A stretch of 64,000 nt of DNA from an uncultured Roseateles sp. (GTDB taxonomy: Bacteria > Pseudomonadota > Gammaproteobacteria > Burkholderiales > Burkholderiaceae_C), in assembly GCF_945956965.1 (NCBI RefSeq), contig NZ_CAMFJS010000025.1, positions 1 through 64,000 of the forward strand. The letters are read 5' to 3'. Positions 42,719 through 60,450 of this stretch are shown here, one piece after another (the stretch's first letter is position 1; each line of letters starts with the position of its first letter). A program made the position numbers and the translations under genes. The notes beneath the pieces are model-generated. The model did not search any database, was not told the origin of the DNA, and worked only from the letters and a program-made list of their open reading frames with translations.

Positions 42719-44082
42719 GCGGGTTCCTCGTCCTGCTTCTTGCCGAAGTCGGCCGGGATCTTGATCAGCGCCGCCATCGCAAACGATGGAATCGTGGCCA
42801 CCAGCACCCAGATGAAGAAGTGCAGATAGCCCAACTGATCCTGCAGCCAGCCGCTCCACATGCCGGGAATCATCATGCCCAGCGCCATGAAGCCGGTGCA
42901 GATGGCGTAATGCGCCGTGGCGTATGAGCCCCCAGGCCGCCTCGCGTCGGCCACCCCCCGGGGGGGCTCAGGTGTCTTGGGGCGGCCCGGCGACACCTGG
43001 TGGGAGCCCTCCGCAACCAAAATCATGTACATCAGATAGGCCGTGAAGCCCAGGCCATAACCGAATTGTTCGACGGCCAGCGCCGCGCTGATCAGCACCA
43101 GGCTGCCGGGGTGCGCCAGGGCCAGGGCCACAAAAGCGATATTGGGCACATGCATCATCAGCACCAGTGGCCACAGCGCCTTTTTGAGGCCCACGCGCGA
43201 GATGATCCAGCCGCCCAGCAAGCCGCCCAGGGTCAGGGCGGTGAGGCCCACCGTGCCGTAGGCGATGCCGACTTGCTTGTTCGTCAGGCCCAGGCCGCCG
43301 GCGGCTGGGCTGTCGAGCAAAAAAGGCGTGGCCAGCTTGAGCAGCTGCGCTTCCGGGAAGCGGTAGAGCAGCAAAAAGCCCAGGATCACCCCGATGCCGG
43401 GCTTGCGGAAGAACTCGGCAAACACCTGCAGAAAGTCGCGCAGCAAACCGGCCGAACCCAGGCGACCCGGCCCTTTGGCATCGGCCGCCGGGCGCGGCAG
43501 CACAAAGAAGTGATAGGCCGCCATCAGCCCAAACAACCCGGCCAGCAGCGCGAAGACAATGCTCCAGGCGGTCGTCATGCTGCCGGTGCGCTCTTGCAGC
43601 TCACCGGCCAGGTAGACCAGGCCGCCCTGGCCGCCGATATTGGCCAAGCGGTAGAAGGTGGAGCGCACGCCGACAAAAGCGGCTTGGCTGTGCTGCGGCA
43701 GGGCCAGCATATAAAAGCCGTCTGCGGCGATGTCGTGCGAGGCCGAGGCGAAGGCCATCAGCCAGAACACCGCCAAGGTCATCTGAAAAGCCTGCGGGCC
43801 GGGAATGGTCAGGGCCACCATGGCCAGGGCCACGCCAATCAGGAATTGCAGTGCGATGATCCAGCTGCGCTTGGTGTGGAAGAGCTCAATCAGCGGCGAC
43901 CACAGCGGCTTGATGACCCAGGGCAGATAGAGCCAGCTGGTGTAGAGCGCGATGTCGGTGTTCGAAAAGCCTAGGTTCTTGTACATGATGACCGACAGCG
44001 TCATCACCACCACATAGGGAATGCCTTGGCCGAAATAGAGCGAGGGGATCCAGCGCCAGGGATTGACCTTTTTGTCGCTCAT
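42715..44082 (-). CDS. ampG: AmpG-family muropeptide permease with in-frame palindromic insertion
   Basis: 455 residues, 12 or more membrane helices. AmpG marks: IPSLYFGQGIPYVVVMTLSVIMYKN-type start, YTSWLYLPWVIKPLWSPLIE, ASHDIAADGFYMLAL and TAHYAICTGFMALGMMIPGM. It imports anhydromuropeptides (or related wall sugars) from the periplasm. Between AEGSHQ and TAHYAICTG, where relatives have no gap, residues 363-388 (Pro/Arg/Gly-rich) are encoded by a 78-bp palindromic element at 42919-42996. Start and stop overlap murQ and the digH-like gene by 4 bases each. Whether the loop insertion is tolerated is not known; the frame is intact. Confidence 0.87.
   Translation of the reverse strand: MSDKKVNPWRWIPSLYFGQGIPYVVVMTLSVIMYKNLGFSNTDIALYTSWLYLPWVIKPLWSPLIELFHTKRSWIIALQFLIGVALAMVALTIPGPQAFQMTLAVFWLMAFASASHDIAADGFYMLALPQHSQAAFVGVRSTFYRLANIGGQGGLVYLAGELQERTGSMTTAWSIVFALLAGLFGLMAAYHFFVLPRPAADAKGPGRLGSAGLLRDFLQVFAEFFRKPGIGVILGFLLLYRFPEAQLLKLATPFLLDSPAAGGLGLTNKQVGIAYGTVGLTALTLGGLLGGWIISRVGLKKALWPLVLMMHVPNIAFVALALAHPGSLVLISAALAVEQFGYGLGFTAYLMYMILVAEGSHQVSPGRPKTPEPPRGVADARRPGGSYATAHYAICTGFMALGMMIPGMWSGWLQDQLGYLHFFIWVLVATIPSFAMAALIKIPADFGKKQDEEPA
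42919..42996 (-). repeat. 78-bp palindromic element inserted in frame in the ampG-like gene
   Basis: Two nested inverted repeats: TGAGCCCCC (42925-42933) with GGGGGCTCA (42962-42970), and CAGGTGTC (42969-42976) with GACACCTG (42992-42999). It includes the run CCCCCCGGGGGGG. The GC-rich double hairpin resembles small dispersed palindromic repeats that I associate with intergenic regions of Burkholderiales. It adds 26 codons, without a stop, to a loop of the permease. Confidence 0.6.
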
Positions 44083-44963
44083 GGTGAGAGCAAGGCCTGG
44101 CGCAGATTGCCATCGGCGGCGTCCAGGGCGGCGCGCGCCTCGCCTACGCTCAGCTGCTTGTTCAGGGCCAGCACCGCCAGCTTGACGTGGTGGCCGCACT
44201 GCGCCAGCACGGCTTGCGCGCGCGCTTCATCCGCGCCGCTGATGCGCACGGTCAACGCCAGGGCGCGTTGCAGCAGCTTGGCATTGGTGGGTTTGAGGTC
44301 CACCATCAGATTGCCGTAGACCTTGTTGAGTTTGACCATCAGTGCGCTCGAGAATGTGTTGAGCGCTATTTTCTGCGAGCTACCGGCCTTCAGCCGCGTG
44401 CTGCCTGCAATCAATTCAGCTCCGGTGTCCAGAAAGATGCCGATATCGGCCTGAGCCGTCAGCGCCGCCCCAGGGTTGTTGGCAAAACCCAGGGTTAATG
44501 CGCCCCCTGCGCGTGCCGCCCGCAGAGCGCCCATCACATAAGGCGTGGCGCCGGAAGCGGCCAGCAGCAAGACCACATCGTTAGGCGTGGGCGCCAGAGC
44601 CAGCATCTCGGCCGCGCCTTGCGGGCCGTCGTCCTCGGCCCCTTCAATGGCCACAAACATGGCCCGCTCGCCACCGGCCAGCAGGGCCAGGGCGCGCTCG
44701 CGCGGCCAGGAGAAGGTGGGGTAGAGCTCCACGCTGTCCAGCACTCCGAGCCGGCCCGAGGTGCCGGCACCCACATAAATCAGGCGGCCGCCGGCCTGGA
44801 TGCGCGGCAAGGCCGCCTCTACCGCAGCAGCAATCTGCGCGCCCGCCGCCTGCACCGCGCGCACCGCGTCGAGCTGGTCCTGCACCAAGGTATCCACCAG
44901 GGTGGGCAGGGCGTAGAGGTCCAGATCGGCGTGTTGGGTGCTGGCGGCTTCGGTGTTCAACAT
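44079..44963 (-). CDS. murQ: N-acetylmuramic acid 6-phosphate etherase
   Basis: 294 residues, SIS fold. It splits MurNAc-6-P into GlcNAc-6-P and D-lactate in cell-wall sugar recycling. Signatures: GRLIYVGAGTSGRLGVLDSVE, FVAIEGAEDDGPQGA, LAASGATPYVMGAL, ELIAGSTRLKAGSSQKIALN and the C-terminal helix HVKLAVLALNKQLSVGEARAAL. The start is the ATG at 44963. It is the first gene of a murQ-ampG-digH-like operon with 4-base overlaps. No murP or anmK is nearby, so the phosphorylating step must be coded elsewhere. Confidence 0.95.
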   Translation of the reverse strand: MLNTEAASTQHADLDLYALPTLVDTLVQDQLDAVRAVQAAGAQIAAAVEAALPRIQAGGRLIYVGAGTSGRLGVLDSVELYPTFSWPRERALALLAGGERAMFVAIEGAEDDGPQGAAEMLALAPTPNDVVLLLAASGATPYVMGALRAARAGGALTLGFANNPGAALTAQADIGIFLDTGAELIAGSTRLKAGSSQKIALNTFSSALMVKLNKVYGNLMVDLKPTNAKLLQRALALTVRISGADEARAQAVLAQCGHHVKLAVLALNKQLSVGEARAALDAADGNLRQALLSP

Positions 44964-45107
44964 GGCGGGTGAGGGCTGCAGCTGGGCAGCCAGGCATGAC
45001 AAGGTGCTGCCGACTCTAGTGAGTTCGCTGCGCTCGCGCCAATATGCAGCGTCTTTGCTCCCATAACCCCAGCTCATTCAGTAATGTCGAAAAAATTTTC
45101 GGTGGGT

Positions 45108-45134
45108 TGTAAGAAGGGCGGGGTGCCGGGCGAC
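45108..45134 (+). promoter_or_regulatory. Candidate ECF-sigma-type promoter of the bufferin operon
   Basis: TGTAAG (45108-45113), a 17-bp spacer, then CGAC (45131-45134), 87 bases before the bufA start. This resembles the AAC/TGTAA plus CGNC layout of ECF-dependent promoters that drive such operons elsewhere. The rest of the 257-bp spacer between murQ and bufA shows no sigma-70 box I trust. Confidence 0.25.
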
Positions 45135-45220
45135 ACAAGCAGCGTGGGCGTACCAAGCGCCTGCATCAAGTGTCAAACCTTTTCTCCATTCCCGACATCT
45201 CACCCCAACCGGAGCAAATC

Positions 45221-45511
45221 ATGCAAGCAAGCACTTCCACCACCAAGACCCTGTCCGCCACCGGCCTGAGCATCGCTGCCGCCGCCGCCACCTTGTTCGC
45301 CGCTGCAGCCGGCTTCACCAGCGTGGCCCAGGCCGCGGACGGCGATATGGGCATGGTCAAGTGCTCGGGCATCAATAGCTGCAAGGGCAGCTCCGAGTGC
45401 AAGACCGCCAAGAGCGAATGCAAGGGCCACAACAGCTGCAAGGGCCAGGGCTGGGTCAGCAAGAAGACGGCTGAGGAGTGCACCAAAGAAGGCGGCAAGG
45501 TGCTGAAGTAA
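45221..45511 (+). CDS. bufA: BufA-type bufferin precursor (cysteine-rich secreted peptide)
   Basis: 96 residues. A Sec signal peptide (cleavage after VAQA, near residue 38) and a mature part with six cysteines at 48, 54, 60, 67, 73 and 87. Pattern: KCSGINSCKGSSECK and a second ECKGHNSCKGQGW. This is the KCxGxNxCK family of ribosomal metallophore precursors, in which a DUF692 enzyme turns cysteines into thiooxazole-type groups that bind metal, copper in the studied case. The next two genes encode exactly those partners. CCGGAG lies 7 bases before the ATG. A 14-bp hairpin separates it from bufB. Confidence 0.88.
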   Translation: MQASTSTTKTLSATGLSIAAAAATLFAAAAGFTSVAQAADGDMGMVKCSGINSCKGSSECKTAKSECKGHNSCKGQGWVSKKTAEECTKEGGKVLK

Positions 45512-45530
45512 GCCAATCAAGCAGCCTTGT

Positions 45531-45568
45531 GCTTGGGGCGGGGTGCAAGACCTGACCCCGCCCCAAGC
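45531..45568 (+). promoter_or_regulatory. Perfect 14-bp hairpin between bufA and bufB
   Basis: GCTTGGGGCGGGGT (45531-45544), loop GCAAGACCTG (45545-45554), ACCCCGCCCCAAGC (45555-45568). A T7 run is 12 bases later (45581-45587), too far for a standard terminator. It could protect the bufA mRNA 3' end or lower bufBC expression. The loop and right arm hold the 15-bp word repeated elsewhere. Confidence 0.75.
45545..45559 (+). repeat. 15-bp repeated word, copy 2 (in the bufA-bufB hairpin)
   Basis: GCAAGACCTGACCCC, identical to 59649-59663 and to the complement of 34264-34278. Confidence 0.6.
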
Positions 45569-45627
45569 CATATGCCTCAGTTTTTTTGACCGCGCAGGCC
45601 GCGCTGCGTTTGACAGGACCGATCACC

Positions 45628-46581
45628 ATGCCCGTCCCCTCATCCCCACCCCTGCAAGGTTTCGGCCTTGGCCTGCGCAGCGAGCATTACGCTGCTTTTG
45701 CCGATGCCGCCCGGCCGCTGCCCGCAGGGCTCAAGCCGGATTGGCTGGAGATCATCAGCGAGAACTATCTGGTGCCCGGAGGCCGCCCGCTGTGGCACTT
45801 GGAGCGCATACGACGGGACTTCCCCATGGTCATGCATGGCGTGTCCATGTCCATCGGCAGCAGCGACGCGCTGAACCTGGACTATCTGCGCGCGCTCAAA
45901 ACCCTGGCCGATCGGGTGCAGCCGGCCTGGGTGTCCGACCATTTGTGCTGGACCGGCGTGGACCACCGCAATCTGCATGATCTGCTGCCCATGCCCTATA
46001 CCGAGGCCGCGCTGGCGCATCTGCTGCCGCGCATCGCACAGGTGCAAGACCTGCTGCAGCGGCCCCTGGTGCTGGAGAACGTGTCCAGCTATATCCGCTT
46101 CGCCGAAGACGAGATGCGCGAGGCCGAGTTTGTGGCCCAGCTGCTGCGCCGCAGTGGCTGCCGCCTGCTGCTCGATGTCAACAATGTCTATGTCTCCGCC
46201 CGCAATCACGGCTTTGACGCCCGTGACTACATCGACCACATGCCGCCCGAGCAAGTGGTGCAAATCCACCTGGCCGGCCATGAAGATCAGGGTGACCTGA
46301 TCATCGACACCCACGACGCGCCGGTGTGCGACGCGGTCTGGCAGCTCTACGTCTACACCGTGCTGCGCCTGGGAGCTAAGCCCACCATGATTGAACGGGA
46401 TGACAAGATCCCGCCGCTGCTCGACTTGCTGCTGGAGTTGGATCAGGCGCGTCAGCTGGTGCGCCAGACCTGCATCACTACGAGTCATCAGCCAAGGCAA
46501 GAGCCAATGCGCCAGCGGGACTGGCCCTTGCCGCCCAGGCAAGACCTGGCCCCAGCCGCAAGTCACGGGCGCGCAGCATGA
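45628..46581 (+). CDS. bufB: BufB, DUF692-family multinuclear iron oxidase (MNIO)
   Basis: 317 residues, TIM barrel. Iron-ligand stretches: GFGLGLRSEHYAAF, DWLEIISENYLVPGG, MVMHGVSMSIGSS, WVSDHLCWTG, PLVLENVSSYIRF, LLLDVNNVYVSARNHG and VQIHLAGHEDQGDLIIDTHD. MNIO enzymes use two or three irons to oxidise cysteines of a precursor peptide, here the BufA product. The ATG at 45628 matches family starts. The ~35-residue C-terminal tail after LDQARQLVRQ is longer than expected, Pro/Arg-rich, and contains a near copy of the 15-bp word at 46539-46553. The stop overlaps bufC. Confidence 0.92.
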   Translation: MPVPSSPPLQGFGLGLRSEHYAAFADAARPLPAGLKPDWLEIISENYLVPGGRPLWHLERIRRDFPMVMHGVSMSIGSSDALNLDYLRALKTLADRVQPAWVSDHLCWTGVDHRNLHDLLPMPYTEAALAHLLPRIAQVQDLLQRPLVLENVSSYIRFAEDEMREAEFVAQLLRRSGCRLLLDVNNVYVSARNHGFDARDYIDHMPPEQVVQIHLAGHEDQGDLIIDTHDAPVCDAVWQLYVYTVLRLGAKPTMIERDDKIPPLLDLLLELDQARQLVRQTCITTSHQPRQEPMRQRDWPLPPRQDLAPAASHGRAA

Positions 46582-47396
46582 TCAGCGCAATTACAAGCTG
46601 CAATGCCGCCGCCCTGCACCGGCAACAGCAGCGGCTGCAGGTTCAGATCTTTGGCGGTGATCCGTCAGATGATCCAGAGGGGGCGGCCACGGCGAGCCCC
46701 GGCCTGCTTGCCTACCGCCATGCCTACCGCGCCCGCCTGCAAGCCGCTTTGCGGGACAACTATCTGGTGCTGCAGCGCGCGCTGGGCGACGCGGCCTTTG
46801 ACGCGCTGGCCTTGCGCTATCTGGACGCCCACCCCTCTCGCCAGCCCTCCATCCGCTGGTTTGGCGACCGCCTGGCCGAGTTCATGGCGGCGGAGGCGCA
46901 GCTGCATCCCTCCCTGATCGACTTGGCCCGCATGGATTGGGCCTTGCGCACCGCCTTCGATGCGCCCGAGGCGGCCGCCCTGTTGGGCGTGGAGGACCTG
47001 GCGGCACTGGCGCCCGAGGACTGGGGCCGCCAATGCTTTCGCCTGCAGCCCAGCGTGCAGCTGCTACCCCTGCAATGGGCGATCGAGCCGGCCTGGCGGC
47101 AGCTGCGGGCGTACGAGGCGGAGCGGGGCGATGCCGAGCCTGAGCTGGCCGAGCCCCAGGCGCATGCGCATTGGCTGCTGATCTGGCGTGATGCGGCGAT
47201 GGAGACGCGCTGGCGCTCGCTTGAGCCGCTGGAGGCGCAACAGCTGCTGGCCTTGCAGGGCTGCGCCAGCTTTGCGGCGCTCTGCGAGATGGTGGCAAAC
47301 GCCGCCGCCGACCCCAATCAGACCCAGCAGGCGGCCGCCTTGGTGGCGCAGGGCCTGGGCCGCTGGTTGGGCGAGGGGCTGCTCGCGCGTGACTGA
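46578..47396 (+). CDS. bufC: BufC, DUF2063-family partner of the MNIO enzyme
   Basis: 272 residues. The N-terminal DUF2063 domain has LLAYRHAYRARLQAALRDNY, GDAAFDALALRYLDAHPS and IRWFGDRLAEFM; the C-terminal half is a second helical/beta domain. In related systems the DUF2063 protein binds the precursor peptide and delivers it to the MNIO enzyme. The ATG lies within the stop of bufB (ATGA). It ends the operon; no DoxX-type gene follows. It converges on cti. Confidence 0.9.
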   Translation: MISAITSCNAAALHRQQQRLQVQIFGGDPSDDPEGAATASPGLLAYRHAYRARLQAALRDNYLVLQRALGDAAFDALALRYLDAHPSRQPSIRWFGDRLAEFMAAEAQLHPSLIDLARMDWALRTAFDAPEAAALLGVEDLAALAPEDWGRQCFRLQPSVQLLPLQWAIEPAWRQLRAYEAERGDAEPELAEPQAHAHWLLIWRDAAMETRWRSLEPLEAQQLLALQGCASFAALCEMVANAAADPNQTQQAAALVAQGLGRWLGEGLLARD

Positions 47397-47431
47397 AGTT
47401 GGCCGGCTCTGGGGTTCAGCGGCTCAGCGCC

Positions 47432-49813
47432 TTAGCGATTCTCCAGTCGGTTGTAGTCAAACAAGCCGCCGTCCGGCCCGGCCAGGCGGGGCCGCGCGCG
47501 GTGCAGGGCATCGCTGGCGGCCCAGAACTCGGGGTTGCTGCGGCGCACGGCCCAGCGGTCGGCCAGGCGGCGGTAGTCGGCCTCGCTGCCCAGGGCGGCC
47601 ACAGCGGCGCTGAACTCGGGCAGCTCGCTGGCCTTCACCCGCAGCAAGACATTGGGGTAGGCGCCAATCAGGCCATTGGCCACCGTCAGCGCGTTCTCGG
47701 CTGGCAGCAACTCGCCTTCTTCGCGCAGCAAGCGGGTCATATTCAGGTGACCGAGCTCGCGCAGCAGGCTGAAGTAACGCGGCGGCCCGGCGACCTCAGT
47801 GACTTCCATGAACAGCGTTGCCGGCAGCCAGCCTAGGCTGGGGCCGCGCAGGGTGGCCAGCTGGGCCAGATCGCGGCGCAGGCCGGCATTGGGCTCTTGC
47901 TGCAGGGCCCAGCGTTGCTGCAGGGCGGGGCCGATGCGCTTGGCCAGCAGGCCCAGCAACTCGGCCTTGGGGTCGGCGGTCTTGAAGGGGATGGCGCTTT
48001 CATGCGTGCCGGTCAGCGCCAGGGTTTGCATTTGCTCCAGCGCGGCAGGCCGGGCCTGGCGGTACCAATGCGCCACCACGCCGGGCCGGGCTGCGCGCGG
48101 CAGCAGATTGATGAAGTTGGCCTCGCCCTCCATGCGCAGAAAGTCCATGAACAGCCGGCTGTGCAGCTGGTGGCCAACATCGCCGTAAACGTCAAAGCCC
48201 GCAGCCAGCAGATAGAAGATGCGCTCAAACAGCGGGTAGCCGATCACCCAGGCCGTTTTGGGTGTGTCGCCCACCAGGCCTTGCACGACGCTGGCGCTTT
48301 CAAACTGGCGGAACACGGTCAGTGCGGCATTCGGGTTATGGCGGTCACCATCCCACACCATGTCCAAGGTGGGGCCGCCGTGGGCGGTGAAGGCAGCACT
48401 CAGGCTTTGCGCCTTCTCGTGCTGGAAGCGCTTTTCCTGTTTGGCGTAAACAGTCCAGAAGTCGATCACCGAGGCATCGCTGCCCTGGGCGGCCGGCAGC
48501 CCGGCGGCGGCGCCGGCGCGCAGCACCAGCTCGCTGGCGTCATGGCCCAGGCTGCTGTCGGGGTCGGTGAAGAAGACCCAGAAGCGATCCTCGATCACGT
48601 TCAGCGCCACCTGGCCCCGGCACACCGGGCCTTTGATGAAGTTCATGATGAAGAACTGCGCGTCGTCCAGCAAGAAGCGGTAGCGCGCATCGCTGGGCAT
48701 GGCCTGGAAGCTGGCCAGGCCGTTGGAGGCCATGCTGGGTTCGTAGCCGGGCAGCTGCGCCACCTCGTAGCGAGGTTTCAGGAACAGGGCGCGGTAGCGC
48801 TCGCGCCGTGCCGCGTCGAAGCGGTAAGGCATATGCGTCTTGGCCACGATGGGTTCCAAGTCACGCTGCAAGCGGTAGTAAAAAGGCGCGCTGCCGGGGT
48901 CGTCAAACGGCCGCCGGGTGGCGATGGGCGCAATCGCCTGGCCGGGCGGCGTGCTGCTGCGCACCAGCTTGTAGGCCTGGCGCGCCGCCTCGTCGCTGAG
49001 GTAGAGGTGGCCCAGGAATAAATGCTCGTAGAGGTAGCGGCTCATCAGCCGCTCTTTATTGCTGTTCCCGTTGTTGAGGAACTTCTCCCAAGCGATGACT
49101 TCGCGCTGCTCGGTGGCGGTGGGGGCCGGGGCGCCGTCATCGGGCGCGCCGGCTTCCAGCCAGCGTGCCACCAGATTCAATTCCTCGGCGCTGATGCCGG
49201 GCAGACCGTAAGGCATGCCGGCCAGGGGCTGGGCCTTGGCATGGGCCTCGAAGTGTTCGATCCGCGGGCAGCTTTGCGCCCGGTCCATCGAGAAGTCAAA
49301 AGACTTGGCCGGCAGCACATCTACCGCCGGCAGCGGATGATCTTGCTTGAGCAAGAGGCTGCGGTAGAGCAAGCTGGCCGAGCGCATGGCCTGCGGCGTG
49401 TTCTCAAATTCATTGAGCACCGGCTGGAAGCCGCGCTCGCGCCACTCCGACGCGACTTGCGCATCGGTGAACAGCCGCGTCGGCTCGGCCGGACGCAGGC
49501 GGGTACCGTCGTAGACCTTGGCGCTGCTCAGGCCGCGTGCGATGCCCTCCCAGCTGCCCAGCTTGAGCTGGCAGGGCGCGTCGTAACAGGCGTGGCAGAC
49601 CACGCAGCGGCTTTGCAGCAAGGGCTTGATCTGCTGCTGATAGCTCACGCCGCCGGGCGGCATCGCCTGGGCCTGGTCATAACGCTGCGGATCAGGGGCA
49701 CCGTGCTCGCGCTGGTAGGCCTGCTGAGTCAGCGCCGCGCAGGCGGACAAGAGCAGGGCGGGCAGGGCGATAGCGCAGCGGCTGGCAAGGCGGTGAGTCA
49801 GGTGGGCAGGCAT
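47432..49813 (-). CDS. cti: Cis-trans fatty acid isomerase, periplasmic c-type heme protein
   Basis: 793 residues. A signal peptide with a lipobox-like LLSACA, a heme-binding site CVVCHACYDAPCQLKLGSWE, and family regions RYLYEHLFLGHLYL, MPYRFDAARRERYRALFLK, DAQFFIMNFIKGPVCRGQVALNVIEDRFW and DPDSSLGHDASE. Cti converts cis-unsaturated acyl chains of membrane lipids to trans forms, which stiffens the membrane under solvent, heat or metal stress. The ATG at 49813 gives the signal peptide. Single gene, between bufC (convergent) and the LLM oxidoreductase. Confidence 0.93.
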   Translation of the reverse strand: MPAHLTHRLASRCAIALPALLLSACAALTQQAYQREHGAPDPQRYDQAQAMPPGGVSYQQQIKPLLQSRCVVCHACYDAPCQLKLGSWEGIARGLSSAKVYDGTRLRPAEPTRLFTDAQVASEWRERGFQPVLNEFENTPQAMRSASLLYRSLLLKQDHPLPAVDVLPAKSFDFSMDRAQSCPRIEHFEAHAKAQPLAGMPYGLPGISAEELNLVARWLEAGAPDDGAPAPTATEQREVIAWEKFLNNGNSNKERLMSRYLYEHLFLGHLYLSDEAARQAYKLVRSSTPPGQAIAPIATRRPFDDPGSAPFYYRLQRDLEPIVAKTHMPYRFDAARRERYRALFLKPRYEVAQLPGYEPSMASNGLASFQAMPSDARYRFLLDDAQFFIMNFIKGPVCRGQVALNVIEDRFWVFFTDPDSSLGHDASELVLRAGAAAGLPAAQGSDASVIDFWTVYAKQEKRFQHEKAQSLSAAFTAHGGPTLDMVWDGDRHNPNAALTVFRQFESASVVQGLVGDTPKTAWVIGYPLFERIFYLLAAGFDVYGDVGHQLHSRLFMDFLRMEGEANFINLLPRAARPGVVAHWYRQARPAALEQMQTLALTGTHESAIPFKTADPKAELLGLLAKRIGPALQQRWALQQEPNAGLRRDLAQLATLRGPSLGWLPATLFMEVTEVAGPPRYFSLLRELGHLNMTRLLREEGELLPAENALTVANGLIGAYPNVLLRVKASELPEFSAAVAALGSEADYRRLADRWAVRRSNPEFWAASDALHRARPRLAGPDGGLFDYNRLENR

Positions 49814-59646: not shown

Positions 59647-60450
59647 ATGCAAGACCTGACCCCCACCCTGCTGCTGGCCGCAGCCTTGTTCGCCGCCCAG
59701 CCAGCGGCAGCGCTGGAGCTGCCTGCACCCGCCGTGCTGCAAGCCGGCCTGGCCACCAAGGCGCAAACCATTGAGGTGCTGGAGCCGCATTTGAGCAGCG
59801 GCCAGCGCCAGGTGCGCTATCTTGGCTACCCCGCGCCGCAGCTGCTGGACCATGTGCTGGGCCCGCTGTGGCGCGAGGATGCCGAGCAGGAAATTGAGCT
59901 GCGCGCGCTGGACGGTTTTGTCTCGCGCATTCCGGTGGCGCGCTTTTTGAAGTACTCGGCGTTTCTGGTGGTGGCGCGGGCCGATGGCGCGGCCTTCCAG
60001 GTGGATAACCACTTGCAGAACGAGAAGGCGGTCTGGCTGGCGCCCTACTACCTGGTGTGGGACAACCTGCGCTCGCCCGAGCTGCAGGCCGAAGGCGGCG
60101 CGCTCTGGCCTTATCAGGTGGCGCAAATCAGCTTGCGGCCCAGCAGCCGCGCGGCGCTATTGCCCGGCCAGATGGGCAAACGCTGGGCCCAGCAAGCGGC
60201 CTGGGTGCAGAAATACTGCCTCAGCTGCCATCAGGTCAACGGCTATGGCGGCGACAAGATGCCGCTCAACCTGGCGCAACGGGCGCGCCAGATTGAGGCG
60301 GCCGAGTGGCAACGCCTGCTGCTCTCGCCCACCAGCGTCAGGCCGGGCAGCACCATGCCGGCCTTGCCGGACAGCTTCAGCCCGGCCACACGCGCCAGCG
60401 TGGCCGCGCAATTGCATGACTATCTGAAGGCCTTGCCGCTGGCGCCCTGA
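59647..60450 (+). CDS. Periplasmic c-type cytochrome with N-terminal molybdopterin-like domain
   Basis: 267 residues. A signal peptide (ending PAAAL), about 150 residues resembling the small oxidoreductase-like domain of exported molybdopterin-type proteins (FVSRIPVARFLKYSAFLVVAR), then a single-heme cytochrome part with CLSCHQVNGYGGDKMPLNL and a later STMPALPDS. An exported electron carrier is likely; the partner is unknown. The start codon's last base begins a copy of the 15-bp repeated word. Converges with cadR (27 bases). Confidence 0.75.
   Translation: MQDLTPTLLLAAALFAAQPAAALELPAPAVLQAGLATKAQTIEVLEPHLSSGQRQVRYLGYPAPQLLDHVLGPLWREDAEQEIELRALDGFVSRIPVARFLKYSAFLVVARADGAAFQVDNHLQNEKAVWLAPYYLVWDNLRSPELQAEGGALWPYQVAQISLRPSSRAALLPGQMGKRWAQQAAWVQKYCLSCHQVNGYGGDKMPLNLAQRARQIEAAEWQRLLLSPTSVRPGSTMPALPDSFSPATRASVAAQLHDYLKALPLAP
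59649..59663 (+). repeat. 15-bp repeated word, copy 3 (first codons of the cytochrome gene)
   Basis: GCAAGACCTGACCCC, identical to 45545-45559 and to the complement of 34264-34278. It overlaps the last base of the start codon at 59647 and encodes the first residues of the signal peptide. Confidence 0.6.

Follow-up and report, generated by a model that had tools for sequence, protein, structure and literature searches.

The bufferin operon and its setting

The DNA considered here is a stretch of 64,000 nucleotides from an uncultured Roseateles sp. (NCBI RefSeq assembly GCF_945956965.1, contig NZ_CAMFJS010000025.1, positions 1 to 64,000 of the forward strand; hereafter the window), in which positions 45221-47396 are occupied by a three-gene operon, bufA2-bufB-bufC, transcribed along the forward strand. 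The first gene, bufA2 (45221-45511), encodes a Buf2-type bufferin precursor of 96 amino acids with six cysteines (positions 48, 54, 60, 67, 73 and 87); the second, bufB (45628-46581), an MNIO (DUF692) maturase of 317 amino acids; and the third, bufC (46578-47396), a DUF2063 partner (PME1) of 272 amino acids. Both BufA2 and the maturase exceed the cut-offs of their NCBIfam models: BufA2 scores 92.3 bits against NF050166 (Cu_RiPP_BufA2, cut-off 60), a Pfam scan of the same protein giving no match, and BufB scores 368.6 bits against the equivalog model NF050167 (MNIO_BufB, cut-off 310) as well as 357.8 bits against PF05114 (cut-off 25). BufB is also a sequence relative of the solved structures 3bww and 8hci. 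BufC matches PF09836 (DUF2063; 68.2 bits, cut-off 27.2) and PF22106 (NGO1945 C-terminal domain; 30.1 bits, cut-off 27), but its score against the NCBIfam HvfC model (50.3 bits) falls under the cut-off of 142, and it is therefore not HvfC itself.

Comparisons drew on two sets of relatives: 18 genomes of the genus, 11 of which (the window genome included) encode a BufA2 above the cut-off, and the best 80 of 145 loci from inside and outside the genus, which by their titles belong largely to Burkholderiales and other betaproteobacteria. The order bufA2-bufB-bufC recurs in all 11 genus loci, the window counted, and is therefore not a matter of chance; the six cysteines are likewise invariant in all 11 proteins. 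In BufA2 they fall in the stretches KCSGINSCKG and ECKGHNSCKGQGW, and the N-terminus of the precursor carries a signal-peptide-like hydrophobic stretch followed by AQA|AD, with a putative cleavage near A38/A39, as judged by eye. BufB was matched in 73 of the 80 loci. In the stretches presumed to bind iron it has 12 H/D/E/N positions, and at every one of them the residue is conserved in 70 or more of the relatives with coverage there (72 or 73, depending on the position). A preliminary description, made from the letters alone, had presented this stretch as a compact bufferin operon with six cysteines in repeated patterns, intact iron-ligand stretches in bufB and a DUF2063 gene joined to bufB by ATGA, and the NF050166, NF050167, PF05114 and PF09836 matches, the residue counts and the overlap bear it out on each of these points.

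The operon lies between murQ (44079-45077), which diverges from bufA2, and a gene for a cis/trans fatty-acid isomerase (CTI), which runs convergently from 47432 on. Given these neighbours, and in agreement with what had been described, neither a DoxX gene nor a sigma/anti-sigma pair adjoins the operon by the open reading frames and the Pfam and NCBIfam scans of the flanks. The further suggestion that this absence points to a different metal or a different control did not hold up, because the absence is the rule for such clusters. Antoine et al. 2025 (PMC12452194), in the parts consulted, place sigma/NrsF genes in Buf1 and not in Buf2 clusters, and a DoxX gene stands 3' of bufA2 on the same strand in just two loci of the 80, namely L193 and, beyond an intervening bufA1-like match, L163. 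The latter count comes from a profile of three DoxX proteins run against all same-strand frames 3' of bufA2, 71 of the 80 loci having at least 2.7 kb there; a narrower phmmer test, in which 34 of the 68 loci showed an open reading frame directly past bufC on the same strand, gave no DoxX match. The Buf2 (Buf_6/12Cys) clusters of that paper likewise combine a six-cysteine precursor bearing a signal peptide with an MNIO and a DUF2063 partner, without sigma/NrsF genes, and do not differ from the present one in gene content. Judged by its sequence, then, the window operon belongs, with its MNIO and DUF2063 partner, to the Buf2 (six-cysteine) type of bufferin operon and is an additional member of a described family with ordinary gene content. 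By analogy with that family (PMC12452194, PMC13097082), BufA2 probably binds copper and probably undergoes thiooxazole modification, though PMC12452194 by its own account did not identify the chemical modifications of Buf2 bufferins.

The promoter-like site and the second bufferin locus

Examination of the gap between murQ and bufA2 reveals a site resembling promoters read by extracytoplasmic function (ECF) sigma factors. On the forward strand it consists of a -35 element TGTAAG (45108-45113) and a -10 element CGAC (45131-45134) that begins 17 nucleotides past it, preceded by an AT-rich, UP-element-like block AAAAAATTTT (45090-45099) read from the sequence. An alignment of the DNA 5' of the 11 genus bufA2 genes contains a single clearly conserved block amid diverged flanks, and this block is the site: an AT-rich run, TGTAAG (once TGTAAA, once CGTAAG), 16 or 17 bases and CGAC, present at all 11 loci. 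The AT run recurs at the corresponding place before most bufA2 and bufA1 genes of the genus and is often not evident outside it.

A site of like make-up (AT-rich block, TGTAAG/CGAC type) precedes the bufA1 gene of the window genome. This gene belongs to the second of the two PF05114 matches in that genome, on another contig (C21), where the order is bufA1 (DUF2282, 79.6 bits), MNIO gene, DUF2063 gene and DoxX gene (65.7 bits). Divergent from bufA1 and 134 bp away is a gene for an ECF sigma factor with Sigma70 regions 2 and 4, above the cut-offs of the TIGR02943 and PRK12520 models, and directly downstream of it a gene for a protein of 64 amino acids (by the start codon that we chose) with the pattern C-X25-H-X3-C-X2-C. 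The small protein scores 71.1 bits against NF052368 (cut-off 50) and 20.8 bits against Pfam zf-HC2, slightly below the cut-off of 22.2, and no transmembrane stretch is evident in it by eye. The motif C/H-X23-26-H-X3-C-X2-C is quoted for the zinc-associated anti-sigma (ZAS) partners of neisserial and Streptomyces sigma factors and is kept in the Haemophilus one (PMC7907618); by sequence the C21 protein fits it. Beside this sigma gene we found no membrane anti-sigma of the NrsF type (DUF1109), its partner being the small ZAS protein.

Across the genus, 21 bufA1 genes from 17 of the 18 genomes were searched for the site up to 420 nucleotides upstream of the first conserved cysteine, and 14 have it, one (G016) with CGTC. 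The seven without it are those of G013, G015 and G017, genomes that have bufA1 and lack the sigma gene, and four second copies (G001, G003, G011, G014). In the same three sigma-less genomes (loci L030, L031 and L032) a pyroglutamyl peptidase gene stands between bufA1 and the MNIO gene; the L030 copy matches PF01470 at 245.8 bits, and those of L031 and L032 were recognised by eye. We trained a position weight matrix on 14 bufA1 sites, namely 13 of those in the genus (G016 excluded) and one at a contig end in G012, where there is no PF10048 match. With this matrix the window bufA2 site ranks first in the whole 64-kb window at 23.2 bits, ahead of a runner-up at 12.1 and of a best score of 8.7 over ten random sequences of window size, and the bufA2 site is top-ranked in each of the 10 other genus loci as well. 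Taken by itself the bare pattern is uninformative, since its 91 occurrences summed over the 18 genomes do not exceed the 104 of a reversed control; the case rests on position, strand and co-occurrence. We inspected the surroundings of most, not all, of the 91, and discounted the one at C21:39546, which falls within the sigma gene and which we attribute to conserved coding sequence of region 4.

Beyond the genus the position and strand of the site are likewise distinctive. A CGAC-form site lies within 350 nucleotides 5' of the bufA2 match in 52 of the 80 loci and on the opposite strand in none, the remainder of these loci yielding 1 match in 1.14 Mb with both strands counted. Nine further loci, Accumulibacter and Propionivibrio among them, have a CGTC variant (background 3 in 1.14 Mb), and 19 have neither form. 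Four bufA2 loci (L149, L155, L169, L178) keep the site with no bufB match in the stretch examined. Together with the preservation of the site while its flanks diverge, these four bear on the possibility that a local copper regulator or a housekeeping promoter controls the operon and that the site is a relic. The divergent murQ promoter region shares the murQ-bufA2 gap and would suit such an arrangement, but a consensus scan of 44900-47600 found no sigma-70-type promoter, and we regard a relic as very unlikely.

The same scan found no standard terminator. The bufA2-bufB gap holds a 14-bp perfect inverted repeat (45531-45568, forward strand) that would form a strong RNA hairpin (folding z -3.6 and -4.0 in two runs), and this fell outside the scan's rule because its loop is 10 nucleotides long and the T-run begins 12 nucleotides past the stem. 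It is possible that the hairpin acts as a partial terminator or as an RNA-stabilising element; however, the minimum free energy of the corresponding gap is below that of shuffled sequences (p<0.05) in 6 of the 11 genus loci and not in the other 5, so that we claim no general role for it. The word TGCAAGACCTGACCCC, with 0-2 mismatches, occurs six times in the window (17802, 29272, 34264, 45544, 46538, 59648; expected 0.04), once within this hairpin and once in the 3' end of bufB, while the copy at 59648 apparently marks the beginning of a coding region. It is a dispersed repeat, with 5 exact copies in the genome and none of the reversed control.

Co-occurrence of the site with the sigma gene

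The distribution of the sigma gene follows that of the operon and of the site. In the genus, a match to the C21 sigma (E<=1e-20) is found in all 11 genomes with an above-cut-off BufA2, nine of them at 79% identity or more, and in the window genome this match is the only one. Among the 7 genomes without such a BufA2 the sigma is present in 3 and absent from 4, one of the 4 being 76% complete (Fisher p 0.011 for BufA2 versus sigma presence in the 18 genomes). Outside the genus we chose 49 of the 80 loci, the other 31 including 9 genus members already in the genus set. At E<=1e-25 the sigma was matched in 27 of 29 genomes with a CGAC site, in 8 of 8 with a CGTC site and in 3 of 12 with neither; taking either form, the contrast is 35 of 37 against 3 of 12 (Fisher p 5e-6, uncorrected for descent). 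L150 and L158, two loci of genomes with the sigma and no site, have by eye seemingly decayed sites. In one metagenome-assembled genome of Sterolibacteriaceae (L185, 550-5835) the sigma gene, the ZAS gene, the Buf1 operon, DoxX and a Buf2 operon with its own site follow one another consecutively, an exception to the rule that Buf2 clusters have no sigma genes.

Given that DoxX, the ECF sigma and the ZAS protein are all encoded at the Buf1 locus and that the bufA1 and bufA2 sites are alike, it is simpler to suppose shared control in trans, and we consider it likely, from these sequence comparisons, that the window operon is driven in trans by the C21 ECF/ZAS switch which it would share with the Buf1 operon. 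Under this proposal BufB, guided by BufC, would act in the cytoplasm and convert BufA2 cysteines by oxidation into heterocycles of the thiooxazole type; the modified peptide would be exported by Sec and, once in the periplasm, would buffer copper(I)-like metals. Transcription of bufA2 would start at the ECF-type promoter (AT-rich block, TGTAAG-N17-CGAC), presumably recognised by the sigma factor from the other contig, which the 64-amino-acid anti-sigma, probably cytoplasmic, might hold until metal or thiol stress strips its zinc. A single switch could thereby activate both operons.

In this proposal the gene identities, the site with its conservation and its co-occurrence with the sigma gene are direct observations, and the modification and export of BufA2, its metal, recognition of the site by the sigma factor, the cytoplasmic location and the signal sensed by the ZAS protein are inferred. 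Several observations weigh against it. The related species are non-independent samples, and the 80-locus set is not fully new, as 9 of its records belong to the same genus. The -35 and -10 letters of the matrix are not independent, because its bufA1 training sites were found through a bufA2-derived pattern; the AT block is. Furthermore, site and sigma do not always go together: 1) the four second bufA1 copies lack the site in genomes that bear the sigma; 2) the sigma is present without an above-cut-off BufA2 in G001, G008 and G016; 3) L150, L158 and L202 have the sigma and no site; 4) L140 and L174 have the site and no sigma match at E<=1e-25; and 5) the best sigma matches in G006 and G011 are only 49% and 59% identical. 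The last two, together with the excess of reversed-control matches over the bare pattern, would also be accounted for if the operon were of the Buf2 type but its site were read by an ECF sigma other than that of C21, such as a paralogue of overlapping specificity. We think this unlikely, as in the window genome the site recurs at the bufA1 gene beside the C21 sigma, that sigma has no second match there, and the presence or absence of the site tracks that of the sigma.

The site was also seen before other genes. In several genus genomes (L087-L094, L103, L120) a further TGTAAG-N17-CGAC site precedes what, judged by eye in L087-L090, L092-L094 and L120, seems to be the same secreted protein; the L087 copy, which was scanned, matches Sel1 (93.3 bits). 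The block upstream of this site is unlike the AT run, so it may be another promoter type. In L095-L098 (G003, G010, G001, G008) a gene for a 63-amino-acid protein of the ZAS type diverges from bufA1 and has a site of its own; in these genomes the sigma gene lies elsewhere, and another ZAS gene follows it there. Lastly, in L099 and L100 (G004, G007) sites stand before a secreted protein of the thioredoxin fold (PF00085, L099 copy scanned) and before a protein of 221-225 amino acids whose L099 copy has no Pfam match.

Known systems and a proposed bufferin regulon

The published systems are compared here through parts of the papers cited. A precedent for control in trans comes from Caulobacter crescentus, where SigF controls the adjoining CC3254-CC3257 (DUF2282, DUF692, DUF2063, DoxX) and also, from similar promoters, the separate three-gene CC2907-CC2906-CC2905 (PMC3511200): one ECF sigma with an adjoining DUF2282-MNIO-DUF2063-DoxX operon and a three-gene MNIO operon in trans, as proposed here. 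Two differences stand beside this likeness. The Caulobacter anti-sigma NrsF (CC3252, Table 1 of PMC3511200) has six transmembrane helices, in place of the 64-amino-acid ZAS protein of the window genome. CC2907 was annotated as DUF2282 in 2012 (PMC3511200), and NF050166 has no match in 14 control genomes, among which we judge Caulobacter to be; its second operon is therefore alike in architecture and not, as tested, in precursor family, which weakens the parallel. In Cupriavidus metallidurans the ECF sigma gene likewise diverges from a copper- and gold-induced operon that we take as Buf1-type (gigPABT with rpoQ-rsqA); RsqA is predicted to be membrane-bound, unlike the ZAS protein, and RpoQ is assumed, but not proven, to control gig (PMC10304878).

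In the small ZAS partner, predicted to be cytoplasmic, and for Neisseria in the promoter too, the window genome is comparable with neisserial sigma-E/MseR and Haemophilus RpoE2/HrsE, called ECF group 13. Neisserial sigma-E, with the ZAS anti-sigma NMB2145 (MseR), controls an operon in which DoxX is accompanied by three genes of no assigned function (PMC2893595, PMC3240639), and RpoE2/HrsE of H. influenzae is associated with a cluster of DUF2063, COG3220 and DoxX (PMC7907618), so that DoxX is common to the targets and the Haemophilus cluster also names DUF2063 and COG3220 proteins. The neisserial consensus, GTMAGBWTT-(12-13 nt)-CGTCTAAH preceded by an AT-rich element (PMC2893595), has 16-17 bases to CGTC when counted from GTAAG, the same spacing as in the window; the -35 element, the spacing and the AT block agree, and one -10 base differs (CGAC, A for T). 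The C21 sigma is tentatively likened to the ECF13 kind by its promoter-like site, save for that -10 base, and by its ZAS partner and DoxX cluster. The neisserial precursor is of the EGKCG/oxazolin type, encoded in a single such cluster. The same precursor type and single cluster are found in H. influenzae (PMC13097082), in contrast to the Buf1 and Buf2 precursors at two loci, and the -10 CGAC, of the window genome. The thiooxazole captophorins fontiphorin and oxazolin share the MNIO-PME1 chemistry and differ by their EGKCG-repeat precursors (PMC13097082).

These systems also bear on the ligand. In Caulobacter the SigF regulon is raised by copper in every condition tested (PMC8224329), but chromium and cadmium induce it too (PMC3511200, PMC8224329); the related switches of Neisseria and Haemophilus are linked to MsrAB, in Haemophilus also to oxidants (PMC2893595, PMC7907618); and fusions to MerC exist (PMC12452194). 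Such responses leave some room for BufA2 to bind another metal or to act mainly in thiol or oxidative stress, but the reported function of the family is copper (PMC12452194, PMC13097082), and we hold this alternative to be rather unlikely.

What the window locus would add to the Buf2 family is its promoter link to an ECF/ZAS pair, suggested by a bufA2 site of the same make-up as the bufA1 site. The consulted parts of PMC12452194 mention no link in trans to a sigma locus, and our literature search found no account of a Buf2 link in trans to an ECF/ZAS pair and, outside Caulobacter, none of how Buf2 clusters are switched on. The link turns the earlier remark that control may differ into a specific, testable statement, and the conserved site offers a cheap and direct test in environmental Burkholderiales isolates. 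More broadly, we incline, with less assurance than for the window operon itself, to the view that in Burkholderiales and their relatives one ECF sigma/small ZAS pair governs a dispersed bufferin regulon. Besides the Buf1-DoxX operon next to the pair, this regulon would take in the Buf2 operon, controlled in trans, and bufA2 genes that stand alone; certain species would add a ZAS gene unlinked to the pair and a secreted protein of the Sel1 or thioredoxin-like kind. A single promoter type would then join the work on bufferins with that on sigma-E in Neisseria and Haemophilus. If this view is true, sensing would fall to a zinc-thiol switch in the cytoplasm that metal or thiol stress displaces, in contrast to the membrane anti-sigmas described for operons of the Buf1 type in Caulobacter and Cupriavidus. 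The -10 element, CGAC in one case and CGTC in the other, would have drifted in step with the sequence of the sigma factor.

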